Assembly (NCBI GenBank): GCA_030432595.1
Contig: JAUIGU010000001.1
Coordinates: forward strand, 310,001-374,000
Reading direction: 5' to 3'
Length of the DNA: 64,000 bases
Origin: Phycisphaerae bacterium
GTDB lineage: Bacteria > Planctomycetota > Phycisphaerae > Phycisphaerales > Phycisphaeraceae
In this document: positions 35,426 through 63,921 of the stretch, in pieces
Numbering within the stretch: position 1 is the first letter of the stretch
How the letters are laid out: every line of letters starts with the position of its first letter
The notes under the pieces: model-generated
Database searches by the model: none
The model's input: the letters and a program-made list of their open reading frames with translations, nothing else
What the model was told of the DNA's origin: nothing
Position numbers and translations under genes: made by a program

Positions 35426-36199
35426 TCAAACCGCGCGGCGACGTCGTGTCAACATCATGGTGCCAAGAAGCCCCACGGCGGCCACGCCAGGCTCGGGGAT
35501 GATGGCCCGGATGTCGCCGGTGACGGCCACGATGTTGGTCAGGATCGGCCGGGTCGGGTTGGTCCCGAAATTGACCTGCTCGACATCGAAGCTATCGAGC
35601 TGACGGTTCGTATCGACCGGCACACCGATGACGAAGATGCTGAGGCGGTCCATGTCTTCGACGATGCCGGACGTGGTGTTGAAGCTGTCGAGGAGTTGGA
35701 TGAGCGGCGTTTCGGACGGCGGAAGGTTTGTCCAGTTTCTGGCCACGACGCGGGTCGTGACGCTGCCGTCGGCGTAATTGAGGGTCACGTCCAGGTCCGC
35801 GTCGCTGATCGTGCCGAACCCGTGGAGTTGCAGGCTGTTGTACGTCGCCATCACGTTCGGCGTGATCGTGAAGCCCTCGCCGCCACCAAACCTCACCGAG
35901 TTGGCTGAATCGTAGCCGCCAAACTGCACGATCTCGGCCCCGAAAGGCACGGCACCGCTGTCGGGAAGACCCACCGGGTCCACGTCACCCGACGCGACGA
36001 CCGCCGACTGGGTCGCCAGCGCCATGTCCTGACCGTCCGCGGCCACCGCAGAATCACCGGGTAACGTCGAAAAAACGATGTCAGCGTTGAACAGCGGCGT
36101 CAGATCGAATTGCATGAACCCCGCATTTGCCCCTGAGGTGGCGACCGCAGACAGCATGGAAGCGGTCACAACACGGCAGGCCGGACTGATCTGTTTCAT
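35426..36199 (-). CDS. PEP-CTERM surface protein within the polysaccharide locus
   Basis: 257 residues with a signal peptide (about 1-28) and a C-terminal IIPEPGVAAVGLLGTMMLTRRRRAV, a standard PEP-CTERM sorting signal. The body is beta-rich, for example ITPNVMATYNSLQLHGFGTI, of unknown fold. It sits just downstream of the Wzc-like gene. PEP-CTERM proteins and exopolysaccharide genes are known to occur together, and the protein may be a matrix component. A TATAAG-like element and GGTACCTCGGGTATTTAC lie upstream, within 36200-36264, as a possible own promoter. Confidence 0.82.
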   Translation of the reverse strand: MKQISPACRVVTASMLSAVATSGANAGFMQFDLTPLFNADIVFSTLPGDSAVAADGQDMALATQSAVVASGDVDPVGLPDSGAVPFGAEIVQFGGYDSANSVRFGGGEGFTITPNVMATYNSLQLHGFGTISDADLDVTLNYADGSVTTRVVARNWTNLPPSETPLIQLLDSFNTTSGIVEDMDRLSIFVIGVPVDTNRQLDSFDVEQVNFGTNPTRPILTNIVAVTGDIRAIIPEPGVAAVGLLGTMMLTRRRRAV

Positions 36200-38700: not shown

Positions 38701-39291
38701 TCAGCGGAGCGTTTTCCGACGAAGGATGGCCGGCAAGGCAATGAAAACCACGGCGAACATCGCGGGTTCGGGGATCACCGACGTCCCCACCGAGAGACTC
38801 CCGGAAACCAGCGTGACGCCGGCAATCTCGCCGCCGGAGTTGGACAACTGCGTGAGTTCGGGGACGAAGTCCAGCGAGAGCGAACCCGAACCCGTCGCGC
38901 TCACGTCGATCAGCAACTCAGCCAGCACGTACTGCCCGACCGCAAGCGTAACATCGCTGTCGCCGAAATCGAACACGGCGATCTCCGTGTCCGGCACGTC
39001 GTCAAACGAGATGAAGTTGGCCGCACCGAACACCTCGCCGGGTAACGCGATGGCCACGTTCGGCGTCGCGGTGATCGGCGAGCCGCCGGTGTCCCAGGTC
39101 ATTCCCAGCGAGACCGCGCCCAGGTCCACCGCGCTGTCGGTCACGTCAACGCGAACCGGGAGTTGCACGCTCTGGCTGTTCCCGCCGCTGAGGTCCAGGA
39201 ACGCCGAGTCGATCGACAGTGAAACCGCCGCCACGGCCGATGACGGCCAGCAAAGCACGACGGACACAAAAAGCAGGAAGACGATACGCAT
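38701..39291 (-). CDS. PEP-CTERM protein with cohesin-like domain
   Basis: 196 residues with a signal peptide ending near SSAVA and a C-terminal VIPEPAMFAVVFIALPAILRR PEP-CTERM tail. The body (LSIDSAFLDLSGGNSQSVQL, FISFDDVPDTEIAVFDFGD) resembles the beta-sandwich of cohesin-like domains. A dockerin-like region is present at the end of the giant protein upstream in the same block, so a pairing is possible but unproven. It is between the acetyltransferase and the Wzc gene, with 61 and 75 bases to these neighbours. Confidence 0.75.
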   Translation of the reverse strand: MRIVFLLFVSVVLCWPSSAVAAVSLSIDSAFLDLSGGNSQSVQLPVRVDVTDSAVDLGAVSLGMTWDTGGSPITATPNVAIALPGEVFGAANFISFDDVPDTEIAVFDFGDSDVTLAVGQYVLAELLIDVSATGSGSLSLDFVPELTQLSNSGGEIAGVTLVSGSLSVGTSVIPEPAMFAVVFIALPAILRRKTLR

Positions 39292-49676: not shown

Positions 49677-50609
49677 TTACGCGTCGCCCCACGGCAACGG
49701 TCGGCCCAACCATTCGGCCAGTTGCCGGTTCGGCTCGGCAAACACCCGCTCCAGACGGGCCCGCGACGCGGCGGGCATCCGGCCGGCACCGCGGTACGTG
49801 CGCCACGGCCGGGTCCACCGCCCCACCGCCGCCGCGGTCGAACGCGCCCACGGTCCGCCGGCGTCGGCGACCCGGCGCGCGGCCCGCGTTGCGCGATCCA
49901 CGGCCGGCCACTTCGGGTAGTCCGCACGGTTTTTCCCGGCCGGCGCCAGGTCCGCCGGGATGGCATCCGCCGATAGCCCGAGATGCTCGAACACGCCGCG
50001 CATCGTACCGGCCGGGTCACGCTTGAGGTCCGGCAGCAACACCACATGCAACGCTTCCGCACCAAACGCGTCCGCATACATGTTCAAATGTTCGGCATAC
50101 CGCCCACGATGCACGTACCCGAACATCATGCGGTCGTCGTCGGTCCCCGATGACAATCGATCCGCCTCGGCCTCGAGCGCGTCGGTGAACCCGAGCGTCT
50201 CCGTCCCCCGCCGGATCTGGTGCCAGTAGTGCGACCACGCCCGATCCACCGGGTCACGGAGCACCGCGAGCAACCGCACCTCCGGCAACGCTTCACGGAT
50301 ACGACGGCAGGCGCCGGCGTCGCTGAGGTAGTTCGGCGTCGCCTCGCCGCAGTACGCGTCGCCCGGCGCGGACTCGAACAGCGCGGCGTAACGCGCCAAG
50401 CCGTCATGCTCATACCGGCCGTGCTGCGGGAACTTCGCGTAGCTGCCGAAAAAGTGCAGTTCCTTGTCATCGGGCAAAAACACGCGCGGGCTGCGGCTGA
50501 GCAGGTCCCACAGCGTGGTCGTGCCGCACTTCATCTCGCCGAGGATGATGAAATCCGGCAGCCGCATCGGCGCGGCCACGTCCGGGATGGCGGGCGCGGG
50601 GATGGTCAT
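49677..50609 (-). CDS. PAPS-dependent sulfotransferase (4 of 5)
   Basis: 310 residues from the ATG at 50609, overlapping the Wzx stop by four bases. The PAPS loop is G24-EMKCGTTTL33, followed by KELHFFGSYAKF, and the 3'-phosphate motif is LRDPVDRAWSHYWHQIRRG. This is the NDST/heparan 3-O sulfotransferase-like branch, related in pattern to the third sulfotransferase but clearly distinct. It presumably sulfates the polysaccharide repeat unit. Confidence 0.87.
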   Translation of the reverse strand: MTIPAPAIPDVAAPMRLPDFIILGEMKCGTTTLWDLLSRSPRVFLPDDKELHFFGSYAKFPQHGRYEHDGLARYAALFESAPGDAYCGEATPNYLSDAGACRRIREALPEVRLLAVLRDPVDRAWSHYWHQIRRGTETLGFTDALEAEADRLSSGTDDDRMMFGYVHRGRYAEHLNMYADAFGAEALHVVLLPDLKRDPAGTMRGVFEHLGLSADAIPADLAPAGKNRADYPKWPAVDRATRAARRVADAGGPWARSTAAAVGRWTRPWRTYRGAGRMPAASRARLERVFAEPNRQLAEWLGRPLPWGDA

Positions 50610-52150
50610 AGGGCCGGCTCCGGTTGCTTCGCGGCCTTGGGTGGCCGGAGGAATTGGCGCAGCGACGCGAGTTGCGCCAGATCGCCCATCACCGCCAACA
50701 CGGCGAAGTAGGTCACCGCCCCCACCGCGCCGCCGGCCAGCGCCAGCCAACGCGGGTCGTCGAACGCCACGCGCTCGCCCACGAACCACGCGACGCCCAC
50801 CGCCGCCGCCGTCGCCACGACCGGCCCGCGCAACGCCCGCAACAGGCCCATCAGGTTGGCCGGGGACTTCCGCAGGGCAAGGGTCAGCAACCACGGCAAC
50901 ACCGCCCAGGTCACGGCGCCGTAAGCCCACGCCATCGCCTCGATCCCCAGCGTGACCACCGACGCGAACGCCGCCACCAGGATCACCGTGTTGACCACGC
51001 TGTAGAAGAAGAAACGCCCCGTCCGGTCCGTGGCGATCATCAACCAGTTGCAGGCGCCGATGATCGGCTGGGCGAGCGACCCCAGCGCAAAGATCCGGAA
51101 CACCTCGGCGGCCTGGTCCCACTGCGGCCCGAGGATCAGCCGCGTCATGCCCAACGGGAACAGCGCCAACAGAGCCAGCAGCGGGATGCACACCACCGCC
51201 TGGAAATGCGCCGCCCGGTAGAAGTAGTTTGCGAGCTTCTGCGGCTGGTCGTGCAGGCGACTCATCGCCGGCACCATGACTGTGCTCAGCGGCCGACCCA
51301 GGTGCTGCACGGGCAGCATCACCACGCTATACGCCTTGCTGTACGCACCCAGCAGTGTGGGGCCGAGCATGGCGCCGATGAGCAGGTTGTCGACGTTCTT
51401 GCTGAGGTACGTTGTCAGGTTCGCGGCCGTGAGGTTCCCGCCGAACATCAGCAGCCGTTTGATCCCGCCGCCCACCGCCGGCCGACCGGGCCGCCAAGGC
51501 GACAACCACCAGAACGCGGCCGCGTTGTAAACCCCGTTGACGATCTGCGAGAGCACGAGCGCCCAGTAGCTCAAGCCCATCCACGCGAACGCGATCGCCG
51601 ACCCCGTCCCCAGCGCCATCCCGACGACCTGCGTCTGGTTGATGGCGGCGAAACGCATCTCCCTGCGGAGCAGCGCCCGGTGCTGCGCGCTCAGCCCGCC
51701 GAGTATGAACCCCGACGCCGCGACCACGACCAGCATCGTCAGACGGTCGTCCCCGAACACCCGGGCGATCAGCGGCGCCGCCGCCGCAGTCAGCGCCGCC
51801 AGCAGCAGGCTCATCCCCACGTTGATCCAGAACAGGCTGTTGACCTGCTGGTGGGTCAGCGTCGGGCTCTGCACCGTCGCCATCGGCAGGCCCATCTGCC
51901 GGAACAGCAGCGCGAACCCCGTCACGGCCGTGACCACCGCGACCAGGCCGAAGTCTTCGGGCGCCAGCAGCCGCGCCAGCACGACCACGCCCGCGAGTTG
52001 CAGCCCCCCCTTGAGGGCTTGCGTGATCGCGGTGTGCGCCCCGCCGCGCACCGTCCGCTCCTTGAGCTGGGGCAGCAGGTGGTCGGTCGCGAAGGCGCCG
52101 GAGCCGTTCCGGTCCTCGGGCGGGTCAGTCGGAGGGGAGACGCGGGTCAT
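50606..52150 (-). CDS. Wzx-type polysaccharide flippase (PST/MVF family)
   Basis: 514 residues from the ATG at 52150. About fourteen hydrophobic helices and the early motifs GAHTAITQALKGGLQLAGVVV and LLAPEDFGLVAVVTAV match oligosaccharide flippases of the RfbX/WzxC type. It would move the lipid-linked repeat unit across the inner membrane for Wzy. Its ends overlap the adjacent sulfotransferase genes by four bases on each side, which ties sulfation and export in one transcript. Confidence 0.88.
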   Translation of the reverse strand: MTRVSPPTDPPEDRNGSGAFATDHLLPQLKERTVRGGAHTAITQALKGGLQLAGVVVLARLLAPEDFGLVAVVTAVTGFALLFRQMGLPMATVQSPTLTHQQVNSLFWINVGMSLLLAALTAAAAPLIARVFGDDRLTMLVVVAASGFILGGLSAQHRALLRREMRFAAINQTQVVGMALGTGSAIAFAWMGLSYWALVLSQIVNGVYNAAAFWWLSPWRPGRPAVGGGIKRLLMFGGNLTAANLTTYLSKNVDNLLIGAMLGPTLLGAYSKAYSVVMLPVQHLGRPLSTVMVPAMSRLHDQPQKLANYFYRAAHFQAVVCIPLLALLALFPLGMTRLILGPQWDQAAEVFRIFALGSLAQPIIGACNWLMIATDRTGRFFFYSVVNTVILVAAFASVVTLGIEAMAWAYGAVTWAVLPWLLTLALRKSPANLMGLLRALRGPVVATAAAVGVAWFVGERVAFDDPRWLALAGGAVGAVTYFAVLAVMGDLAQLASLRQFLRPPKAAKQPEPAL

Positions 52151-53088
52151 GTTGAAACGCTCGCGCCTCCGCGCGTCACGGCAGACTCGGCATCGGGCAT
52201 CGGGCCGAACACGGCACGCGACAACTCCAACACCTCGTCGTTGAACAACCCGAGATAGCGCGGGTCGTCGATCAGCTTCCGCCAGCGCTCGTCGGTGCGC
52301 ATCCGGGCGGCGTCGCCGTGGTACGCGGTGCCGTCGAAAGAGCTGCCGCCGCCGATTCCGCTGACCTGGTCGCCCCCGCGCTGCCAGTCGTCCAGGCCCA
52401 GCGTCTCGGCCAACGCCCGGCGGTACGCGTCGTCCACGCACCAGCGGTTGTAGTTAACCTTGATCAGGTCGCCGTCCGCTTCGCCAGTGTCTTCCACCCA
52501 CGCCCGGGCGTGCGCCATCCACCCGTCCACAATCCGCGTCGGAACCGCACCGTACTTGTGCAGCCGGCTGGCGAACAGGTTGAACGGATCACGCATGATC
52601 AACATGTGCTGGCAAATTTCATGACTTCCGAGCCAGCGCGACGCCTGATCGTGCAGCGTGTCCAGGTGCTCGCCGCGCAGCGGGTGATCTTCGTAACTCA
52701 CCACCGTCAACGCCTTGTGCGGGTGGGCCAAGTGCAGGTGACGGACCTTCTCGCCCTTGTCGGGGTCTTCCGGCTCGATCACCACCGAGCCGTCCGGCCC
52801 GAACGCCTCGACCTGCCCGCAACTCACCAACGGGTTGAGGTGATGCCCGGTCCGGACGCAATTCAAAAACAGCGAAGGCTTCGGCGCGTTGTGCAACACC
52901 CAGTTGATGATCGCGTGGTTGCCGCTGCGGCGCATCCCCGAGACCACGAGCAGCCGCCCCGCCACCATCCCCCGCGACGCCGCGTCGAAGCCCGCGTACA
53001 ACGCCTGGTCCCAACGCCCGGCGCGACGCCGCTTCCGGGCGCTGTGCACCGCCTTGATCACCTTCTTGTCCAGGCGTCGCAGGCTCAT
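52147..53088 (-). CDS. Sulfotransferase-like protein (5 of 5)
   Basis: 313 residues from the ATG at 53088. The PAPS-type loop is S50-GMRRSGNHA59 and the second motif is MLIMRDPFNLFASRLHK. It is more distant from the standard families than the other four, and the loop has RRSGNHA in place of (P/K)xxGTT, but both nucleotide sites are recognisable. The N-terminal 40 residues are basic. It overlaps the first GT2 gene and the Wzx gene by four bases each. Substrate is inferred from context only. Confidence 0.78.
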   Translation of the reverse strand: MSLRRLDKKVIKAVHSARKRRRAGRWDQALYAGFDAASRGMVAGRLLVVSGMRRSGNHAIINWVLHNAPKPSLFLNCVRTGHHLNPLVSCGQVEAFGPDGSVVIEPEDPDKGEKVRHLHLAHPHKALTVVSYEDHPLRGEHLDTLHDQASRWLGSHEICQHMLIMRDPFNLFASRLHKYGAVPTRIVDGWMAHARAWVEDTGEADGDLIKVNYNRWCVDDAYRRALAETLGLDDWQRGGDQVSGIGGGSSFDGTAYHGDAARMRTDERWRKLIDDPRYLGLFNDEVLELSRAVFGPMPDAESAVTRGGASVST

Positions 53089-54023
53089 GAAACCGGTCTC
53101 GCGATCGAGGGGTTGTTCGGGGTCGCCGGGGTCGCGAAAGCCTTCTCGCGGTAGCCGTGCAGCAGGCCCCGGTTGATGCTCAGCCCGTACGCGGCGCGGA
53201 AACGGCCTTGCTCGGAACCGACTAGTCGGGTCGCGGCCGATCGCAATTGACTCGTCACCCACCGGCGCCAGACCCACCACGGACATCCGAACACTCCCAC
53301 ACCGCCGGACGGCGTCAGGGACGCCCGCGACCGGCCGTTGTGGTACCCGCGTTCGATCAGCCACCGCGCGTCGGATCGTTCACGGGGAACCCAGTGCCAC
53401 ACCCGCGCCGCCGGGACGTATTCCCAGGCGAGGCCGCGTTGGAGCAGTGCGTCCTGCACGAAGTCTTCGTCGCCGACACGCACCACCTGGCCCGGGCCGA
53501 CGTGTTCCGGGAACCCGCCCGCAGCGCGGACGTCTTCGGCGTGGGCCGCCCAGTTGAAGCCCAGGAAGTGCATCGGGCGGTCCGCGCCGTACGTGCCTTC
53601 GGGCTCCCATCCGCGGGCCGAGAACGGCAGGTACTTGATCAGGTACGACGGCGGCGGCGTCTCGTAATCCACCGCACAAGGCCCGCCGTAGTACGCCCGC
53701 GGTTGCGCTGCGGCGGCTTGCGTGTAAGCCGTTAGCGTTTCGGGTGCCAGGCGCACGTCGTCGTCGAGGAACACGACCAGCCCCGGGTCCAACGTCGCCA
53801 GCCCCGCGTTGAGTGCGCCGCACTTGCCCGGTTCTTCCCGGAACATGTAGCGGGCCCGAAGCGACGGCGATGCATTGGCGACCGCTTCTTCCACGCCGCG
53901 TCGACCGCCGTTTTCCACCACGATGACTTCCCGGAACGTGTCGGGCAAAGCGCAGCTCGCCAGCGAATCCAGCGTGCGGGTCAGCAGCTCTGGGCGCGCG
54001 GCGGTGGCGATCAGCACATACAT
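53085..54023 (-). CDS. Glycosyltransferase family 2, first gene of the 14-gene run
   Basis: 312 residues. MYVLIATAARPELLTRTLDSL and VVFLDDDVRLAPETL give the GT2 nucleotide-sugar and metal sites, and HFLGFNWAAHAEDVRAAGGF is the acceptor region. Its stop overlaps the start of the sulfotransferase by four bases. Its start is 63 bases downstream of the giant LEPR protein, so the operon promoter could be in this gap or farther upstream. Donor unknown. Confidence 0.86.
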   Translation of the reverse strand: MYVLIATAARPELLTRTLDSLASCALPDTFREVIVVENGGRRGVEEAVANASPSLRARYMFREEPGKCGALNAGLATLDPGLVVFLDDDVRLAPETLTAYTQAAAAQPRAYYGGPCAVDYETPPPSYLIKYLPFSARGWEPEGTYGADRPMHFLGFNWAAHAEDVRAAGGFPEHVGPGQVVRVGDEDFVQDALLQRGLAWEYVPAARVWHWVPRERSDARWLIERGYHNGRSRASLTPSGGVGVFGCPWWVWRRWVTSQLRSAATRLVGSEQGRFRAAYGLSINRGLLHGYREKAFATPATPNNPSIARPVS

Positions 54024-54086
54024 CGAGAAAACCCGTGTTTAACGCGCGACGGTCCGGTACCACTCAATGCATTCATCCTGCGTCAC

Positions 54087-57000
54087 TCACGGCTCGCCGC
54101 CGGGCAGCCGTGAGAACTGCGCCGAACGGACGAGGTTCAGGTCGTCGTTGCTGATCGACCCGTCGCCGTTGAGGTCGGCCCAGACGCTGAAGCCAGCGTC
54201 GTTGAACGTCTCACCCAGCCGGTCCCGGACGTAGATCAGGTCGTTGCCCAGCACGATCGGGCTCGCGGAGTTCACCGTGTCGCCGGGCAGCACGTTCAGC
54301 CGCATGCTCAGGCTTCCGCCGGTGGTGCCGTTACCGCTGGCCGTGCTGACGCCGTCTGTCCATTCGCCGTCGAGCGCGTTGCCCGCCAGGTCGGTGACCG
54401 TGTCGGCCAGGTCGAGCCGCAGTTTGTCGACCCCGATCGGGGCGTCGAGGGTCCACATCGCCGTCCGCGTAGGGGAGTCGTAGCTGAAGGCGCTGAATGT
54501 GTAGCTGGCGTTGACCCCGCTGATCACCAGGTCGTTCTGGCCGACCGTCACGTCCTCGTCGAACACGATCGAGACGCGGTCGAGGTTCGCCCAGGGCAAG
54601 GCCAACAACTGATCGACGCCGTTTGAGGCCAGGTACCCCTGGCCCGTCGCCGGGTCGATGGTGTTGAGGAAGTCCGGCGACCACAACGAACCCGAGACAT
54701 ACACGCCGGTGACGGTCGGTGCGACGCCGTCCGCGCCGCCGGTCACGGTCACCAAGTGGTCCTCGACCTCGCCGCCGACCACCAGGCCGGTCGGGCCGAC
54801 GCCCGCCGCCTCGTTGGACAGCCGCAGCCGCAGCACGGTCGATCCGTCGAGCGCGGAAACCGGCACGGTCACCGGCAGAGTGTTCAACCCGCCGGTCACG
54901 AACACCGCGTCCAAAACGTGCTCGTCGGCGTCGAGGAAGTCGCCGTCCTGATTCAGGTCCAGCCACGCATCGAGGAACCCCGAGCCCGTGACGGTGACGT
55001 CGATCTGGCTCGCGCCGCCGGCCACGAGCGTCGCGCCCGCAAGGCCGTCTTCGTCATCGCCCGCATCGAGGTCGTCGCCGTCAGCACCCGCCGTCGGCAA
55101 GCCGTCGGCTTCGGTATCCACCGACGGCCCGAGCGCGGGCGACGCCGGTTCGCTGGCGGCGCCGCTGGGCCGCAAGTGCCGGGCGCCGTCGTCGGCCAGC
55201 AGCGTGCCGTAGGTCGCCGCCGCGTCGCCGAAGTCGTAGTCCGGCGTATCGTCGTATTTGATCACGATCACGTCGGTCGGGGCACCGGTGACGCCGCCCT
55301 CATTGACCACCGCCGTAAACATGTTGAACCCGGCGATGTCCAGCGGGCTCGTGTCCGTCAACGTAATCGCAAAATCCACGAACCCGCCGGCACCGATCAC
55401 GTCGGTCCATTCGTCGATCGCCACGATCGAGTTGGACTCCAGCAGGTCGATGTCGAAGCCGCCGTTGGGCACGTCCTCCAGGAACAGCCCGGCTTCGAGC
55501 CGCAACAGCGAGACCGTCTCCCCAACCTGACCGAAGACGCGGATGGTCTGGTTCGGGTCGCCCACGACCGTGCCCGAACGCCCGGGCGACAGCGCTTCGA
55601 GGATCAGGCCGACCGCCTCGATGCCCGTGGGCGCGGCGGGGACGTCCGCGTTGATCGTGGCCTGGGACGCGTGTTGCGTGCCCGGCACCGGGTAGGTGTA
55701 CGAGGTGAGGATCGACCCGTCGCTGAACTCGATCGTGACGGTCGCACCCGAGAGCTCGGTCCCGCTCACGCTCGCGGCGTGTTCGGGGCCGGGCGGTTCC
55801 GAGCCCTTCACGCTGGTCGGATCGACGTCCAGGCCGAAGAGGAACGACTCGCCGGGGTTGAAGTCGGTGAAGTCGATCTCGACCGCGTCGTAGCCGCCGT
55901 CGTGCGGAGACAGCAACGTATGGCCCGCGAAACCGGTCTCGACGCTGCCGCCGCCGGACACGAGGTCGCGGCCGTCGGTGTCGCCGGCCAGGCCGTCGGG
56001 GTCGAACACGGAGTCAGTCAGGATTGCGGTCGACAGGTCAATGGTCACCCGCGTGATGTTGCTGCCGTCCGTCGAGTCGTTGAACAGGCGGAACGACTGG
56101 GTGCCGAAGGTGCTCGCCCGCTTGATGTTGGTCGTCCCGGGCTGAATGACCAGACGCCCGGCCGTGTTGGGCACTGCGCCCAGGCCCGCCAGCGAGATCG
56201 AGACGCTGCCGCCGATGCCGGTGTGCGTGATCGCCAGGTCGCCGGTGAAGCTCGCCTCGGTCAGCGGGTTGAACTGCACATCGACGGTGACCGACTGCCC
56301 GGGCGCGAGCACAATCGGCGTGGCGCTGGGCAGGATCAGCGTGAAGGCGTCGGTGTCGCCGGTCAACTGGATCGGGTCCAGCGTGATGTCCGGGTCGGTG
56401 CCGTCGCCGAGGTTGGTCAGCACAACCGACCGGACCGTCGTCTGCGCCGGCGCGACCGTGCCGAAGTCCAGCGACGCCACATCGACGCCGAGCTGGTTCG
56501 CCTGGTCGGCATCGACCTCGATGAAGTCCCACGTCGCGTCGAACGGCGTGCCGCTGGCCGACGCACGGATGCCCGCCGCCAACGCCGCCGACCCATCGAC
56601 CCAACTCATGGGCACCGACACGCTCGCGGGCAGGTCGACCCGCGTCTCCAGCGAGCCGTTCCGCGAAACCACGTACGCCGCGCTCACCGTCTCGGCCACC
56701 GGGTCCACCGTCAGGATCAGATCGACGTAGTCGATATCGACCATGTTCAGCGGCTGCGTCTGCGACGAGATCACCACGTCGCCGAACTCATCGCCGAACT
56801 GCACCTGGCCCCCGGCGTCGCCGCTGAGCACGAGCTGCACGAAGTTGGACTGCGTGCCGTCGCCGACGTAAAGCCCCATCTCCTGCCCAGGCAGCGGGTT
56901 GTCGAAGAACGGCGTGATCAGCCGCGTGGTGACCGTGAACGTGTCGTTGATCAGCGTCGGGTTGACGCCGAACTGGAACGCGTTGAGCTGCGTGTTGGCG

Positions 57001-60000
57001 GACCCCACCGCCGTGCCGGCGTCGATGTTGCCGATGGTCAATACCTGGCCTGCCCCGCCGGTGGAACTCGACTGGTCGAGTTGCAACAGCTCCTGCCACG
57101 TGTTTGTGTCGTCGAGCATCAGCCCGGTGAACCCGAGCTGGAAGAAGCCGTTGTCGGCGTTGGTGAAGTCGTAACGCACGACGCCGGTGTTGAGCCCGTT
57201 CGTGTCGTCGATGGCGAACGCGTCGTCGACGTCGAAGACCGTGTCGTTGTCGTCGTCGTCGTCGAGCAGGTCGGAGAGGAAGTCGCCATCGTTGTCCGAG
57301 GGGATGCTGCCGGCGTTGTTGGGGTCGGTGCCGTTGGCGTTTTCGTCGTCGTTGGAGTAGCCGTCGCCGTCGAGGTCGTTGGGGTCGCCGGTCCCGCCGC
57401 CGCCGTCGAAGTCGGCGGGCTCGAACACGACGATCTGGTTGGTCGCCCAGTCGCCGGTCCAGACGGTGCCGGGGAACGGACCGTCGTCGCCCAGCGCGGT
57501 CACGTCCAGCGGCGCAGCGCCCACCGACGTGAACAGCGGCTGCTTGAGCAGGACGTTCTGCCCCGACGGGTCGAGGCGGAGGCGCCAGATCGTGTTGCCG
57601 CCGAAGAACGACGCCGCCAACAGGTCGCCCTGCATCGCCGACCCGAAGTTCGTGGCCGTGTACTCGACCAGGCCGTTGGTCGAGGTGTCGAAGGTGACCA
57701 GCGCCCCCTCGCCGACGGTCTGCGGGACGGTGAAGTAGGCCTCGGCCGGGTTTTCCGGCACGTCGATCGTCGGGGACTGCGGGTTGGTCGGGTTGAAGGT
57801 GATGTTATGCGTCGCGCGGACGGGGTTGGGCGAGCCGCCGTAGAAGCCGGGGTTGGGGATCACCTGAAGGTTGTCTTCGGTGGCGATGCCGCCGCCATCA
57901 ACGGGCGCGTTGGTCGGGAAGTCGTCGGACGGGTCGCCCGGCGTGCCGTTGTCGTCGATGACCGGCGCGCCGCCCCAGCCGCCGTTGGCGCCGTTGTCGA
58001 TGGTGTAGAAGTTGCCGTTGCTGTGGATGACCAGGTCGTAGGGGTTGCGCCAGCCGGGCGAGTAGACCTGGACCGGGCCGTTGAGCTCGAGCTTCGCCTG
58101 GTTCTTGCCGTTGTTGCCGCCGAAGACGTCCTGGATGCCGGCCGTGAGGTCGACGTCGGATCCGAAGCCGTCAAAGTCGCGGTCCTCGTCGTCGAGCGTG
58201 GGCAGGTCGTATTTGAAGAAGTTGTCGTCGAAAGTGTCGCCGTCGACGTCCGGGTTCACGGGGTCCAACTGCGTGGGCAGCGCGTCGAGGGCGTCGAGGT
58301 CGAACGAGAGAATCGCCGCGGAGTAGGCATATTCCGACAGGTAGCCGAAGTTGCTGGAAGGCGCGCCTGCGTTGGTGTTGCCGCCGTACGCGAGGTACAG
58401 CGTGTTGGTGTTGGCGTCGTACTCCATGCCGTTGCCGCCGTGCAACTCTTCGGAGCGCGGCAGGCCACGGACCAGATCAACCTTCTCCCAAGCCGCGCCG
58501 GTCCAGGTCAACCGTGAGAGGATGCCGGAGTTGGTATCGACGTTGGCGTTGCCGCCCGAGCCGCCGCGCGGGTCGCTGCTGATGGTGTAGATGACCGGGT
58601 TGACCGACGTGCCGGCGACGTAGATGCCGGTCATCAGCCGCCCCTCCACCGGGTCGGGCACGCCGACGTCGTTGTGGTTGGGGATGTTGTAGACCAGGTC
58701 GATGGTCTCGGCGGCCGTCACCGCGTAGTCGTTCGCGGCGTTGCGCGTGATGGTGTACACATTGATCGTGCCGTCCTGGTGCCCGACGTAGAGCCGGCCG
58801 TCCGGCCCGAACTGCAGCGACGTCGGGTTTGACGTGTTGTTCACGTTGGCGAGCGTGCTCTTCCCGAAGCCGATGGGCGCGGCGTCGGTGGCGACGGCGT
58901 CGAGGCTGAGCACCAGCGTCCGCACCTGCGGGTCGCCGTCGACCGTGTACTCGACCGTCAGCGTCGCGGCGTTGGTGGTCGTCGCGGCCGGCGCATACGC
59001 CACGTCGATGTCGAACGACTGCCCGGGCTGGAGCACGACCGGGGTCAGGTCGTCGAAGTTGTCGGTGAACTCGGTGTCGCCGGTGATGGTGGTCGACTGG
59101 ATCGTGATCGCGGCGTCGCCGGTGGTCCCCAGGTGCGTGACGCTCGCCGTCTTGATCGAGGGCCCGGGCAGCTGCACCGTGCCGAAGTTGATGCCGTCGA
59201 CAAACAGCCCCTCGACCTCCGTGCCCAGCGCGACGGTGGGCTCGACCTGGATGATCTCGAAGCCGGAGATCAGCGGGTCGCCCGAGTTGCCGTGGAAGAA
59301 GTCGATGTCCAGGTTGCCGTCGGCGTCGACGATGAACGAACGCATCGTCCCCGTGTAGCCGCCGACCTCGCTGAAGATGTCGAAGTCCTGCAGCGCGACC
59401 GCGTTCTCGATGAACACGTCGAACACGTCCGCCCCGCCGAAGTTCTCTGGCTCGAAGATCGCCGCGAAATACAGCCGCACCTCGTACATCCCCGGCGTCA
59501 CCGCAAAGTCCCACTGCATCTCCTCAAGCTGCTGCGGGTCGTCGCGGTAGCTCTTGAAGATCTGCTCGGGCGTGCCGATCGGCACGGTGGCGTCGAACAC
59601 CACCGGCGTGGGCGAGCTGTAGGTGCTGCTGCCCGACGCCTCGCGGTTCGTGTACGGCAACGCCGGCTTGTCGTCCTCCCACTCGGGGTTGCCCGAGACC
59701 CCATTGCCGCCCGCGTTCACCCGGTACACGATCAGGCTCGGGTCCGGCGCCTCCGCCACCTCCAGGTCGAACATCGTCGTCGCACTCAGCAGTTCCGGCG
59801 TCCCGACCTCGGTCACCGTGACTTCGATGCCGGTGAACACCGCCGCGTCCCCGAGCTGCGGCTGCAACTCCACCGTACCGGTTCCGTCGCCGTTATCCAC
59901 CACCGAAATGAACGCCGGCAACGCCGCGCCGCCCGACAGCGTCGCCGACAACGCCAGCGTGTGCCCGTCCACGTCCTGCGCCTGGATCGGGATCGACAGC

Positions 60001-60983
60001 GTGTCGCCTTCGAGCAACGCCTGATTGGCGATCGCGTCGATCGTCGGCGCGGTGTTGATGATCTCGGTCACGGCCTCGCCCGCAAAGGCCAGCGCCAGCG
60101 GCGTGTTCACGCCCGAGTGCGCCAGCTCCACCGTCGCGCTATCGAGGCCCTCCGCCGCGGGGTCGTACGTCGCGTTGACCACCAGCGTGTCGCCTGGCTG
60201 GAGAACCTGCCCGCTCACGTCGTCGAGGGTGAAGTCCGTGAAGTCCCCCGCCGTCACCGTCGCAGTGCCCAGCGTGATCGCCGGATCGCCGGTGGTGCCG
60301 AGGTTCTTGAGCGTGACGGCGAGGTTGCCCGGCGTGCCGATCTCGGTCAGCCCGAAGTCCAGCGCCGTCACGTCCGCGCCCAGCGTGTCCGGCTGGATCA
60401 CGCTGAGGATCTCGATGCCGTTGATGTACGGGTTCTCGACCAGCCGGTCGAAGTCGATGTCGAGGTTCGCGTCGCTCTGCACCGTGAACGAGCGCATGAT
60501 CCCGGTCAGGATCCCGCCCGACTCCGCGAACACGTCGAAGTCGTCCAGGACCAGTTGCCCCTCGATCGACACGTCGAACACGGTCTGCCCCGCGGCCGTC
60601 ACGTCGTCGTCCAGCTCCGCGAAGTACAGCCGAACTTCGTACAGGTCCGGCGCGACCGGGAAGTCCCACTGCATCTCGTCGAGCTGGCCCGGGTCGTAGC
60701 GGAACCGCTGGAAGATGTCCGTCGGCGTCCCGACGGGCACGGAGCCATCGAGCGTCACCGGCGTGGGGTTGCCGAACGTCGCGCTGCCCGAGGTCGGCTG
60801 GTTCACGTAGCTGATCGCCGGCTTGTCGTCCTCCCAAACGGGCGTGCCCGCGACCTCGTCGCCGCCCGCGTTCACGCGGTACACAACGTCGCCGCTGAGC
60901 AAAACGCGCGGCTCCAGCGGCTCGAAGAACGAAACCGGGCCGGCGTCATCATGGGGGTCACGGGGGGTGGTCATCTCAGACAA
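54087..60983 (-). CDS. Giant exported multidomain protein with planctomycete LEPR motif
   Basis: 2298 residues. L23-EPRVLLSGD32 is the planctomycete-type N-terminal export motif. Then follow, in order: malectin-like domain (about 34-195), choice-of-anchor-D-like repeat, cadherin/Ig-like part, second malectin-like domain (about 415-580), another anchor-D-like repeat, a propeller resembling sugar/sorbosone dehydrogenases (about 705-1190), a TSP3-like Ca-binding stretch rich in D-x-D-x-D (about 1195-1270), a lectin-like domain, anchor-D-like repeats, a GEVED domain (GGEVEDHLV, about 2100) and a C-terminal dockerin-like region (ADLNGDGSISNDDLNLV, 2269-2285). It is probably a surface carbohydrate-binding protein. 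It lies 63 bases upstream of the sulfated-polysaccharide run. Confidence 0.88.
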   Translation of the reverse strand: MSEMTTPRDPHDDAGPVSFFEPLEPRVLLSGDVVYRVNAGGDEVAGTPVWEDDKPAISYVNQPTSGSATFGNPTPVTLDGSVPVGTPTDIFQRFRYDPGQLDEMQWDFPVAPDLYEVRLYFAELDDDVTAAGQTVFDVSIEGQLVLDDFDVFAESGGILTGIMRSFTVQSDANLDIDFDRLVENPYINGIEILSVIQPDTLGADVTALDFGLTEIGTPGNLAVTLKNLGTTGDPAITLGTATVTAGDFTDFTLDDVSGQVLQPGDTLVVNATYDPAAEGLDSATVELAHSGVNTPLALAFAGEAVTEIINTAPTIDAIANQALLEGDTLSIPIQAQDVDGHTLALSATLSGGAALPAFISVVDNGDGTGTVELQPQLGDAAVFTGIEVTVTEVGTPELLSATTMFDLEVAEAPDPSLIVYRVNAGGNGVSGNPEWEDDKPALPYTNREASGSSTYSSPTPVVFDATVPIGTPEQIFKSYRDDPQQLEEMQWDFAVTPGMYEVRLYFAAIFEPENFGGADVFDVFIENAVALQDFDIFSEVGGYTGTMRSFIVDADGNLDIDFFHGNSGDPLISGFEIIQVEPTVALGTEVEGLFVDGINFGTVQLPGPSIKTASVTHLGTTGDAAITIQSTTITGDTEFTDNFDDLTPVVLQPGQSFDIDVAYAPAATTTNAATLTVEYTVDGDPQVRTLVLSLDAVATDAAPIGFGKSTLANVNNTSNPTSLQFGPDGRLYVGHQDGTINVYTITRNAANDYAVTAAETIDLVYNIPNHNDVGVPDPVEGRLMTGIYVAGTSVNPVIYTISSDPRGGSGGNANVDTNSGILSRLTWTGAAWEKVDLVRGLPRSEELHGGNGMEYDANTNTLYLAYGGNTNAGAPSSNFGYLSEYAYSAAILSFDLDALDALPTQLDPVNPDVDGDTFDDNFFKYDLPTLDDEDRDFDGFGSDVDLTAGIQDVFGGNNGKNQAKLELNGPVQVYSPGWRNPYDLVIHSNGNFYTIDNGANGGWGGAPVIDDNGTPGDPSDDFPTNAPVDGGGIATEDNLQVIPNPGFYGGSPNPVRATHNITFNPTNPQSPTIDVPENPAEAYFTVPQTVGEGALVTFDTSTNGLVEYTATNFGSAMQGDLLAASFFGGNTIWRLRLDPSGQNVLLKQPLFTSVGAAPLDVTALGDDGPFPGTVWTGDWATNQIVVFEPADFDGGGGTGDPNDLDGDGYSNDDENANGTDPNNAGSIPSDNDGDFLSDLLDDDDDNDTVFDVDDAFAIDDTNGLNTGVVRYDFTNADNGFFQLGFTGLMLDDTNTWQELLQLDQSSSTGGAGQVLTIGNIDAGTAVGSANTQLNAFQFGVNPTLINDTFTVTTRLITPFFDNPLPGQEMGLYVGDGTQSNFVQLVLSGDAGGQVQFGDEFGDVVISSQTQPLNMVDIDYVDLILTVDPVAETVSAAYVVSRNGSLETRVDLPASVSVPMSWVDGSAALAAGIRASASGTPFDATWDFIEVDADQANQLGVDVASLDFGTVAPAQTTVRSVVLTNLGDGTDPDITLDPIQLTGDTDAFTLILPSATPIVLAPGQSVTVDVQFNPLTEASFTGDLAITHTGIGGSVSISLAGLGAVPNTAGRLVIQPGTTNIKRASTFGTQSFRLFNDSTDGSNITRVTIDLSTAILTDSVFDPDGLAGDTDGRDLVSGGGSVETGFAGHTLLSPHDGGYDAVEIDFTDFNPGESFLFGLDVDPTSVKGSEPPGPEHAASVSGTELSGATVTIEFSDGSILTSYTYPVPGTQHASQATINADVPAAPTGIEAVGLILEALSPGRSGTVVGDPNQTIRVFGQVGETVSLLRLEAGLFLEDVPNGGFDIDLLESNSIVAIDEWTDVIGAGGFVDFAITLTDTSPLDIAGFNMFTAVVNEGGVTGAPTDVIVIKYDDTPDYDFGDAAATYGTLLADDGARHLRPSGAASEPASPALGPSVDTEADGLPTAGADGDDLDAGDDEDGLAGATLVAGGASQIDVTVTGSGFLDAWLDLNQDGDFLDADEHVLDAVFVTGGLNTLPVTVPVSALDGSTVLRLRLSNEAAGVGPTGLVVGGEVEDHLVTVTGGADGVAPTVTGVYVSGSLWSPDFLNTIDPATGQGYLASNGVDQLLALPWANLDRVSIVFDEDVTVGQNDLVISGVNASYTFSAFSYDSPTRTAMWTLDAPIGVDKLRLDLADTVTDLAGNALDGEWTDGVSTASGNGTTGGSLSMRLNVLPGDTVNSASPIVLGNDLIYVRDRLGETFNDAGFSVWADLNGDGSISNDDLNLVRSAQFSRLPGGEP

Positions 60984-61084
60984 TTCCTTTCAACTCCTGA
61001 TCACAACACCGGCCCGCACGTCGCCGTGCGCGCCGGATCGCCTAGGCCCGGGGTGGACGCGGCGAGACCAAACCAATGGAACAA

Positions 61085-61109
61085 CCGGGAGCGCGGTGAG
61101 CGCTCCCGG
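61085..61109 (-). terminator. Hairpin between the beta-helix and LEPR protein genes
   Basis: CCGGGAGCGC (61085-61094) pairs perfectly with GCGCTCCCGG (61100-61109) around a five-base loop. On the minus strand it comes 62 bases after the stop of the beta-helix gene and is followed by TTGTTCCATTGG, a weak T-rich run, so it could separate the two transcripts. Confidence 0.55.
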
Positions 61110-61170
61110 TCGAGGGAATCGGGTTGTGTTCTGCCGGGCGGGCGGGCCGCGCCGTGCAGACGGGTGGGGG

Positions 61171-63921
61171 TCAGTCGGCCCCGACGAAGCCGCGAACCGT
61201 CGCGCCGACCTCGTACCAGTTGGTGGGGGCCTGGTTCCCGTTGAACGTGCTGTTCTCGATGGTGAACGTGTCCACCCGGGTGTGGAAACGGCCGGAATTG
61301 CGGAGCACGCTGAGCCCGACGAACCGCGAGTCCTTGGTGTACACGTTGCGGAACACGGTGTCCGGCTGACGGCTGCCCCAGACGTAGGCCTTGTCGTTCT
61401 CGATGTCCGAGTTGACGATGGCGAAGCCGTTGATGGTCTGCGGGCCGCCCTCGTAGCCTTCGACGCTACCGTTACGGACCTTCAGGCCGTAGATGATCAC
61501 GTCGTTGCCGAACGGCCGCTCGCCGATGTCGCCGTGGTACTTGGTGCCGGCCGGCCGCTTGAGGTTGGTCATGCGGGTGTTGATGATGGCGTAGTAGCTG
61601 CGGAGCACGTCCTCGCCGATCTCGTCGAAGTGGGTGCCGCGGACGAAGTCGCCGGCGCCGAAGCGCAGGTCGTGGATGTAGCTGTCCGTGTACCACTCGC
61701 CGCCGTCGAAGCGCTTGATCTCGCGGCCGTCGCGCTCGTTGCCTTCGGTGTACTCGACGTTGTCCAGCCACAGGGCCGAGGCCTTGGTCTCGTTGCCCAT
61801 GAGGTGGGACATGAGCTTGACGTTGGCGATCTTGACGCGGGCGCCGCCGAACTTGTAGCCGTCGCCGTTCTCGAGGACGACCTTGTCGCGGTCCACGCCG
61901 GGCGCGGCGGTCACGGTGAACCACCGCTGGTTGCCGCCGTCGAGCTTGACGGCCTCGGGCAGGCGGTGCGTGCCGGCGGGCAGTTCGACCACCACGCCTT
62001 CGCCGTTGCCGGCCTTGTTGACCGCGTCTTCCAGGGACGACGCGTCCTGACCGACACGGATCACCCGCTTGGGCCCGGCGTCGTTGTAGAGCACGAGCGT
62101 GTTTTCATTGCGCACCGGGACGACCTTGGGCTTGCCCGCCTTGGGGTACGCGACCGCGGAGACCTGCACCTTGCCGCGGGGCAGCTTGGCGGGGTCGAGC
62201 ACGGCGACGTATTCCTCGACGCCGGTGCGCGGGTTCACGGTCATCTCGGTGACGGCCGACCACGGGCCGCCGTTGACGCTGAACTCCACCCGGTCGATGC
62301 CGTTGGCGTGGAACGCCATGACGCCGACGGCGAAGGGCTCGTTGAAGCTCTGCCAGGGCACCACGTCCCAGCGGGCGATGGCGGGCTTGTCGGCGGCATA
62401 CCCGGTGCCGACCTGGTTCATATTCGGCGTCGACGCCGTCTGGTCCGACGTCGCCGGCTTGAGCACCGGGGCGCCCGACAGGTCTGCCGGAATCGGCTTG
62501 GGGTCGGCGACGCTGGGCGTCGGGTCGGGGTCAGGGGTCGGATCGACCGTCGGGGACGGCTCGGGGTCCGGGGTCGGCGTCACCGTGGGGGTTGTCGGCG
62601 TCGTCGGGTCCAGGACCGGCGTCAGATCATTCAAGATGTCAAACACGACCGTGCGGCGGCTGAGCGTCTCGCCGTCGAGGTAGGCGACGGCGGTCAGGCT
62701 GTAACGGCCGTTGGGCATCTGCGTGGTGTCCCAGCCGCGCGGGTTGCCGTTGGTGTCGCCGCCAAAGTAGTACGGGGCCTCCGACTCACGGTGCGACATC
62801 GGCTGCGGGCCCTGCAGGGCGAAATCGACCCGGCCCGGCTGCGTGCCGGTCACGGCCGCCGCGATGTTGACCTTCCCGGACAGCAGGTTCCCGGCGGGGA
62901 TGCCGGTGAAGCCTTCGATCACGGTGTCCACGGTCGGCGTGACGGGCTCGGGCTGCGCGGGCGTGGTCGGTTCGGGGTCCGGAGCCGGCGGGGTGATCTG
63001 GGGTTCCTCGGGCTGGGCCGGGGCGTCGGGCACGTTGTCGACCGTGAAGCCGACCACCTTGGCCGCAGACGCGGTGTCGTCGGCGTCGACGGCATACACC
63101 CGCAGTTCGTAGTCGCCGTCGGGCGCGGTCGCGGTGTCCCAGCCGCGGGGGTTGCCGTTGCGGTCGCCCTTGAAGTAGTAGGGCGCGACCACCTCGGTGT
63201 GCTTCATCGACACCGGGCCGGTCAGCTCAAACACCACATTGGCCGGCACGTCGTTCCAGACGTCGGCGGCGATGTTCAGGGTTCCGGCCACGGTGCCGCC
63301 GTCCTGGACACCGGTGATGGTGCCGACGGTCAGCGGGTCGTCCGTGAGCGTCGGTGCGGGTTCCACCGGCGTCGGAGCCACGGGCGTCGGGCTCGGAGTC
63401 GGGTCCGTCGGGGCCGGGGCGATCACGACGTCGTTGCGGACCTCGAAACGGAACACCTTCTGGCCCACCTCGCGGCGGCCGTCGATCGCGGTCGCGGTCA
63501 GCGTGTAATGCCCGTCGGGGACCTGCGTCGTGTCCCAGCCACGGGGGACCCCGTTCTTGTCGCCGCCGAAGTAGTAAGGCGCCGACCGCTCGGTGTCGCG
63601 GGCCGTCGAAGGACCGGCCAGGTCGAAGATGACCTTGTCCGCTTCGACGTCGAAGTCCACCTTCATGGCCACGTTGCCGGACACGACAAACGACCCGGAC
63701 GAACTGGTCAGGGACAGGGTCTGCGTGGCGGGCGCGGCCTCGGTGTCAGCCGGGAGCCCCGCGGAGACAACAATCGCGGCTGCAAGCATGGCGGTCGTAA
63801 ACGGATGCCGGTTTCGCGGTCGCCTGACATGCTTCAGCCATGAGGGACGGCTGGAGCCCGGGTCGGACCAAGAAAACGAATTGGTGCTCGGGTCGAAGGC
63901 TTGGTTGCGGGGAAGCAACAT
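61171..63921 (-). CDS. Secreted protein with three repeated Ig-like domains and a C-terminal parallel beta-helix
   Basis: 916 residues from the ATG at 63921 (AGGGAG lies upstream). The first 40 residues are polar and basic, then a hydrophobic export segment (45-56) ends near EAAPA; a start at Met45 (63789) is possible. Three similar domains (about 66-170, 195-300, 335-435) share A-P-Y-Y-F-(G/K)-G-D-(K/R/T)-N-G-x-P-R-G-W-D-T and are joined by Pro/Thr/Glu-rich linkers. A fourth beta domain follows and then a right-handed beta-helix (about 630-910) with the start VIRVGQDASSLEDAVNKAG. Beta-helix proteins often cut or epimerise polysaccharides; no specific catalytic motif is certain here. Confidence 0.82.
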   Translation of the reverse strand: MLLPRNQAFDPSTNSFSWSDPGSSRPSWLKHVRRPRNRHPFTTAMLAAAIVVSAGLPADTEAAPATQTLSLTSSSGSFVVSGNVAMKVDFDVEADKVIFDLAGPSTARDTERSAPYYFGGDKNGVPRGWDTTQVPDGHYTLTATAIDGRREVGQKVFRFEVRNDVVIAPAPTDPTPSPTPVAPTPVEPAPTLTDDPLTVGTITGVQDGGTVAGTLNIAADVWNDVPANVVFELTGPVSMKHTEVVAPYYFKGDRNGNPRGWDTATAPDGDYELRVYAVDADDTASAAKVVGFTVDNVPDAPAQPEEPQITPPAPDPEPTTPAQPEPVTPTVDTVIEGFTGIPAGNLLSGKVNIAAAVTGTQPGRVDFALQGPQPMSHRESEAPYYFGGDTNGNPRGWDTTQMPNGRYSLTAVAYLDGETLSRRTVVFDILNDLTPVLDPTTPTTPTVTPTPDPEPSPTVDPTPDPDPTPSVADPKPIPADLSGAPVLKPATSDQTASTPNMNQVGTGYAADKPAIARWDVVPWQSFNEPFAVGVMAFHANGIDRVEFSVNGGPWSAVTEMTVNPRTGVEEYVAVLDPAKLPRGKVQVSAVAYPKAGKPKVVPVRNENTLVLYNDAGPKRVIRVGQDASSLEDAVNKAGNGEGVVVELPAGTHRLPEAVKLDGGNQRWFTVTAAPGVDRDKVVLENGDGYKFGGARVKIANVKLMSHLMGNETKASALWLDNVEYTEGNERDGREIKRFDGGEWYTDSYIHDLRFGAGDFVRGTHFDEIGEDVLRSYYAIINTRMTNLKRPAGTKYHGDIGERPFGNDVIIYGLKVRNGSVEGYEGGPQTINGFAIVNSDIENDKAYVWGSRQPDTVFRNVYTKDSRFVGLSVLRNSGRFHTRVDTFTIENSTFNGNQAPTNWYEVGATVRGFVGAD

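Follow-up and report, generated by a model that had tools for sequence, protein, structure and literature searches.

What does a very large multi-domain protein do at the head of a run of polysaccharide genes? This question is raised by a gene in the 64,000-nucleotide stretch of a Phycisphaerae genome analyzed here (the window); to our knowledge, most large multi-domain surface proteins in Planctomycetota have no assigned function. The gene is a single unbroken open reading frame on the minus strand (54087-60983; GC3 0.94), with 2298 codons from a TTG at 60983 to the stop at 54087; an earlier note made from the sequence alone had reported its 2298 residues. Because of an AAAGGAA sequence nine bases upstream, we prefer the ATG at 60974 over this TTG as the more likely start, which shortens the protein to 2295 amino acids. 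At E 1e-3 the protein matched only itself in its own genome, and a PDB search with the whole protein as query found nothing. The gene product is a very large bacterial protein, and probably a secreted one.

The features assigned to the gene and its surroundings are collected in Table 1. The domain list of the earlier note was essentially right, but it lacked three choice-of-anchor-D domains (choice_anch_D, 53.8 bits against a cut-off of 45 in three stretches), a lectin-like sandwich and an unnamed region of about 270 residues. The LEPR export motif near the N-terminus and the GEVED part, both named in that note, score above their cut-offs. The N-terminal motif is common to the studied protein and the LEPR-XLL large surface proteins (NF012209), and it is found above cut-off at ten places in the genome, the studied protein included.

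Table 1. Features of the studied gene, its product and the neighboring DNA (positions in the window).
Feature	Residues	Position	Strand	Basis or remark
LEPR-XLL motif (FEPLEPRVLLSGD)	20-35	60879..60926	-	NF012209, 23.9 bits, cut-off 17
Malectin domain 1	30-200	60384..60896	-	Pfam
Choice-of-anchor D / ASPM-SPD-2-Hydin Ig-like domain 1	206-303	60075..60368	-	Pfam/NCBIfam and relatives
Segment, Ig-like by position	305-415	59739..60071	-	common to L032/L033
Malectin domain 2	415-585	59229..59741	-	Pfam
Choice-of-anchor D domain 2	590-712	58848..59216	-	Pfam/NCBIfam and relatives
Soluble glucose dehydrogenase/AA12-type beta-propeller	712-1195	57399..58850	-	profile comparison
TSP3-type Ca-binding Asp-rich stretch	1200-1275	57159..57386	-	Pfam, sub-threshold at 1203-1224
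Lectin-like (ConA/LamG-type) beta-sandwich	1276-1495	56499..57158	-	fold from low-confidence model
Choice-of-anchor D domain 3	1497-1600	56184..56495	-	Pfam/NCBIfam
Unnamed conserved region, about 270 residues	1606-1890	55314..56168	-	segment searches against relatives
GEVED domain (PF20009)	2004-2079	54747..54974	-	48.4 bits, cut-off 24.4
C-terminal module, first part, Ig-like by eye	2083-2227	54303..54737	-	common to many proteins of the same bacterial family
Dockerin-like tail	2228-2298	54090..54302	-	loop 1 broken, loop 2 DLNGDGSISNDD intact
CDS from preferred ATG		54087..60974	-	2295 aa
Family-2 glycosyltransferase, next downstream		53085..54023	-	63-base gap
Wzx-type flippase (Polysacc_synt_3)		50606..52441	-	polysaccharide run
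Sulfotransferase ORF		49677..51191	-	listed start overlaps flippase; true start probably later
Strong GC-rich hairpin upstream of gene		61082..61112	-	-27.3 kcal/mol with flanks

Two malectin-like domains had been proposed, and both are clearly recognizable: PF11721 matches two stretches with 95.5 bits (curated cut-off 23), and the domains are identical at 92 of 172 aligned columns. In the PDB, a profile built from 21 malectin domains of the studied and related proteins matched FERONIA (E 1e-17) as well as animal malectin (E 1.3e-10). The domains thus fall into the same family by sequence as malectin and the ectodomains of plant malectin-like receptors (PF11721, PF12819), and they are paired as in FERONIA and ANXUR; unlike these proteins, however, the studied protein is bacterial and carries spacers between its two malectin domains. 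For the ligand site, the equivalences between the diglucose-contact positions of animal malectin and those of domains 1 and 2 are presumed. At the presumed equivalent of Y67, an invariant Trp is found; the ERY position holds Tyr in domain 1 and Asp in domain 2, and the other contact sites are mixed. The diglucose contacts of animal malectin, given as Y67, Y89, Y116, F117 and D186 in passages of PMC7783096, seem to be kept just partly in the studied protein, domain 2 being poorer than domain 1.

Downstream of the malectin domains lies what the earlier note had listed as a propeller, without recognizing that it is of the glucose-dehydrogenase type and the most conserved part of the protein. With a profile of 18 propeller rows, the first-ranking PDB entry was soluble quinoprotein glucose dehydrogenase 1c9u (E 1.3e-6), in an alignment that superimposes the catalytic His, places a GLPRSEENH-type stretch on GLPSSKDH and GLRNAYDLVLTENGRLYTTDNGPNA on GHRNPQGLAFTPNGKLLQSEQGPNS. 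Comparison by hhalign with E. coli YliI and the GSDH proteins of the genome gave 96.5% (E 7.5e-10) over columns 3-467, nearly the whole propeller. Pfam GSDH (PF07995) has a cut-off of 25 bits, which the isolated propeller with 21.0 bits (E 2.3e-4) does not reach. Judged by sequence, the propeller is a member of the soluble glucose dehydrogenase/AA12 superfamily, homologous along its length to soluble glucose dehydrogenase, aldose sugar dehydrogenase (PF07995; 1c9u; YliI) and the fungal AA12 pyranose dehydrogenase. GSDH-family genes occur at nine places in the genome; a second LEPR-XLL protein (G000, contig C23, 57793-61872; L121, L281) carries a C-terminal GSDH-family domain above cut-off.

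The sugar side of the dehydrogenase pocket is strictly conserved. Three residues, His848, Arg979 and Asn980 (137, 268 and 269 in propeller numbering), are the same in all 18 aligned propellers and correspond to His144, Arg228 and Asn229 of the dehydrogenase, where the numbering of the latter two, like that of Arg406, is presumed. The cofactor side differs from that of soluble glucose dehydrogenase and AA12: in the sequence alignment, the Arg408 site is Leu or Ile in all 14 rows that reach it. Within the R-I-R-D-V stretch of YliI, it is the second Arg that is replaced by Leu or Ile in the 14 rows, and one Arg and two Lys are found for the first; the Lys377 site falls in a gapped loop of the alignment and gives no clean score. 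According to passages of PMC6881789, His144 is the catalytic residue, Arg408 and Lys377 belong to the PQQ site, and AA12 binds PQQ without Lys377, so that binding of PQQ by the studied propeller is less likely rather than excluded. No PqqE match above cut-off was found in the genome, which is 99.1% complete, and the Pfam matches of the studied protein include no cytochrome or other electron-acceptor domain. The propeller, in its huge multi-domain setting, is thus best described as dehydrogenase-like rather than as a PQQ enzyme.

The propeller is followed by an Asp-rich stretch that had been called a TSP3-like Ca-binding region. The stretch is present, but with TSP3_bac (PF18884) it scores 24.6 bits, 0.4 under the cut-off of 25; the relative in G749 passes TSP_3 with 26.8 against 25 bits. 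Structure prediction of each segment had been suggested in the earlier note, and we ran it for two parts, with weak lectin and AA12 likeness for one and no match for the other. The AlphaFold model of the propeller-TSP3-lectin part has a mean pLDDT of 40.9, which is poor, and its matches from Foldseek and VIA-align serve as weak support only. AA12 entries match part of this low-confidence model in Foldseek (E 2.7e-4); GH43 rows among the structure matches were rejected, with an rmsd near 20. The last 215 residues of the model resemble L-type lectins, ERGIC-53 and a C-terminal fragment of thrombospondin with Z about 11 and rmsd 3.0-3.8 at low confidence (VIA-align), and we tentatively read residues 1276-1495 as a lectin-like sandwich. 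The order of TSP3 repeats followed by an L-type-lectin-like domain is that of the thrombospondin signature region (PDB 1ux6; Z 11.0, rmsd 3.0, 154 aligned, tied with many lectins, for a model of low confidence). A profile of the TSP3-lectin part matched no chain among the PDB sequences, and the thrombospondin likeness is an analogy only. The unnamed region of about 270 residues, present once in the studied protein and as three tandem copies each in L032 and L033 (Acidimicrobiia), shows up as a conserved unit at about 1608-1880 in the segment searches and stays without a Pfam match up to E 10; its profile finds no PDB sequence, and its model (mean pLDDT 55.1) no structure under E 1e-3.

The C-terminal end had been described as dockerin-like, with a degenerate first and an intact second Ca loop. 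Both statements about the loops are borne out, but the dockerin assignment itself is weak: one good loop of 12 residues with similar spacing is present, yet dockerin type I (PF00404) gives 14.5 bits with this part alone and 16.2 when the genome is scanned, short of its cut-off of 22.9, and a dockerin has two Ca loops where only loop 2 is found here. Loop 1 is likewise missing in the relatives L004 and L023 (loops were counted in 14 of 19 module rows, leaving out the second copy in L025, the three in L030, and L019), so its loss is not peculiar to the studied protein. The module of Ig-like (by eye) and dockerin-like parts, residues 2083-2298, occurs once in the genome and in many large proteins of the same bacterial family. 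It is absent from all seven other LEPR-type reading frames of the genome whose ends were examined, several of which carry a different dockerin-like segment (..QGDLDLVLQNWG..). The module is sometimes in tandem, with two copies in L025 and three in L030, and often more residues lie downstream of it; a C-terminal sorting tag, considered for its recurrence on many large proteins, was rejected on account of these tandem copies and the residues beyond. Dockerin is too strong a name for this end. That it plugs the protein into a cohesin-based surface complex is very improbable: the intact loop and the cohesin/dockerin "planctosome" proposed for other Planctomycetes (in passages of PMC6461901) speak for such a complex, but cohesin has no match in the genome and is over cut-off in only one of 41 genomes, the tail stays below the dockerin cut-off, and internal tandem repeats are unlike a docking end.

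We then considered how far this architecture is spread. The core (residues 30-1480) was found at E 1e-20 in six of the 392 genomes of a phylum sample, the genome itself counted, and named records add Flavobacteriaceae (L031, L034) and Acidimicrobiia (L032, L033). The order propeller, TSP3 stretch, lectin-like sandwich is kept in the relatives as a conserved unit. Identity to the studied propeller is 45-56% in 11 relatives from Planctomycetota, Flavobacteriaceae and Acidimicrobiia, 40% in G075 and 32-34% in five relatives of a second group. The malectin domains vary in number and side: two precede the propeller here and three in G475, one follows it in G749, G190, L031 and L034, and several flank it on both sides in L032 and L033. 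A propeller tree fully supports the two groups and leaves the nearest neighbor of the studied propeller unresolved; accordingly, we infer no transfer between phyla. In the family of G475, 15 of 26 genomes match the propeller profile, several of them with many copies (up to seven), all of which, except one in G475 and one in G521, score far lower and fall into the second group. The relative in G010 (L132/L133), from the same family as the studied bacterium, has the same domain order; its end is a CHRD-like segment followed by Kelch-like repeats (by eye) in place of GEVED and dockerin-like parts. The modules are known ones in a variant combination, of which a limited literature search returned no description.

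In the window, the gene is followed after 63 bases (54024-54086) by the next gene of the same strand. The earlier note had placed it 63 bases ahead of a sulfation run; the gap is right, but the adjoining gene encodes a family-2 glycosyltransferase rather than a sulfotransferase, and the nearest sulfotransferase reading frame begins about 2.9 kb beyond. The run, all on the same strand, continues with a Wzx flippase, three sulfotransferase genes, a weak Wzy match, more glycosyltransferases, a hexapeptide transferase, a Wzc-like tyrosine kinase and a UDP-glucose dehydrogenase; in its scanned part, no degradation or uptake genes were recognized. It also holds two genes (35426-36199 and 38701-39291, minus strand) for small secreted-looking proteins with PEP-CTERM-like tails by eye (PEPGVAAVGLLGTMMLTRRRR; PEPAMFAVVFIALPAILRRK). 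A terminator scan found no terminator-like site in the 63-base gap. On the other side, 196 bases separate the ATG from the previous gene and contain the hairpin of Table 1, which is absent from the list of the terminator scan and possibly marks the end of the upstream transcript. This upstream neighbor (61171-63921, minus strand) encodes 916 residues, of which one Big_7 Ig match above cut-off is the only assigned part.

Three related proteins are also found within polysaccharide loci. The related reading frame of G475 (L206/L207), as called, begins 6 bases past a Wzc-like gene. That of G115 (L152) lies 58 bases ahead of a gene for a membrane protein with 10 TM segments, followed on the same strand by glycosyltransferases and a Wzc-like gene; the membrane protein has no Pfam match, and a Wzx-like identity is a guess. 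In L035, a related frame, cut by the contig end before any propeller is seen, lies 394 bases past a glycosyltransferase that follows a Wzc-like gene. For a wider comparison, the 17 run genes of the window served as a phmmer panel for 30 neighborhoods of relatives (29 with an anchor; G176 has none) and 36 control stretches, from which L249 was excluded because it flanks a test locus. Panel genes are not enriched around the relatives (15 in 1001 kb against 11 in 670 kb of controls). A same-strand panel gene lies within 3 kb of 3 of 19 anchors against 9.4% of random placements, a difference that is not significant and in which the control fraction is an upper bound, as random placements may overlap panel genes; within 500 bases the count is 1 of 20. 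Pfam and hydropathy brought out two genes that had escaped the panel, the Wzc-like one in L035 and that for the 10-TM protein in L152. No panel gene is near the relatives in G010 (L132/L133), G129, G749, G681 and L031-L033, and G190 has one at 16 kb. Around propeller paralogues from one other family, 364 kb contain one panel gene, which is no more than a descriptive contrast. The link to polysaccharide operons is thus suggested as a recurring but unproven association.

Based on these observations, we propose that the gene encodes a secreted glycan-binding protein, Ca-dependent and multivalent, which belongs to the cell surface or the slime matrix and is produced along with the polysaccharide of the run that it heads; we rate this reading at nearly an even chance. 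The LEPR-XLL N-terminus would direct export, the two malectin domains and the lectin-like sandwich would grip sugar chains, and the choice-of-anchor-D, GEVED and Ig-like domains would act as spacers, stiffened by calcium through the TSP3 stretch and the single good dockerin-like loop. The propeller may bind the sugar end or act on it in some other way. The kept sugar-side pocket (His, Arg, Asn) together with the missing Arg408 makes this more likely than a classical PQQ dehydrogenase. The earlier note had suggested that the protein binds the product of the operon at the surface. Its malectin domains are real and three other relatives sit in polysaccharide loci, but there is no enrichment over all relatives, and binding of the operon's product is therefore plausible rather than established. 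The gene may share its transcript with the run.

Two other readings have to be weighed against this proposal. The protein could capture foreign polysaccharides, such as algal glycans, at the surface for uptake, its place ahead of the run being incidental. The lack of linkage enrichment, the same architecture in G010 without polysaccharide neighbors, and the proposal that Planctomycetes bind and take up whole polysaccharides (in passages of PMC8882080) agree with such a role, but the head position with its short gap, the three further proteins within polysaccharide loci and the lack of recognized degradation or uptake genes in the scanned part of the run argue against it, and we regard it as unlikely. 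The main competing reading is that the propeller acts as an enzyme on the sugar end; it might be a working sugar dehydrogenase with PQQ or another cofactor that oxidizes the sugar ends of a bound polymer. The fungal AA12 enzyme likewise joins its propeller to a carbohydrate-binding module and tolerates the loss of one PQQ ligand, Lys377 (passages of PMC6881789), and the best PDB sequence match, the AA12 likeness of the low-confidence model and the three invariant pocket residues would all fit an enzyme. Against it stand the Leu or Ile at the Arg408 site, the sub-threshold Pfam score, and the absence of PqqE above cut-off in the genome and of an electron-acceptor domain among the Pfam matches; a working dehydrogenase appears distinctly improbable.

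It is conceivable, though we hold this only tentatively, that the propeller-TSP3-lectin-like unit defines a family, without a name so far and spread across phyla, of secreted proteins that act on polysaccharides. Such a family would be a branch of the soluble glucose dehydrogenase/AA12 group that kept the sugar pocket and the catalytic His and dropped the canonical PQQ arginine, and hence would use another cofactor or serve as a lectin or a sensor of sugar ends; in several Planctomycetota it would be part of the exopolysaccharide machinery. The protein has an anatomy that can be tested and is conserved in three phyla, with sugar-binding modules joined to a propeller of the dehydrogenase type whose cofactor site is altered. 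Should this propeller work without PQQ, a well-studied enzyme fold would have been put to a new use on polysaccharides.
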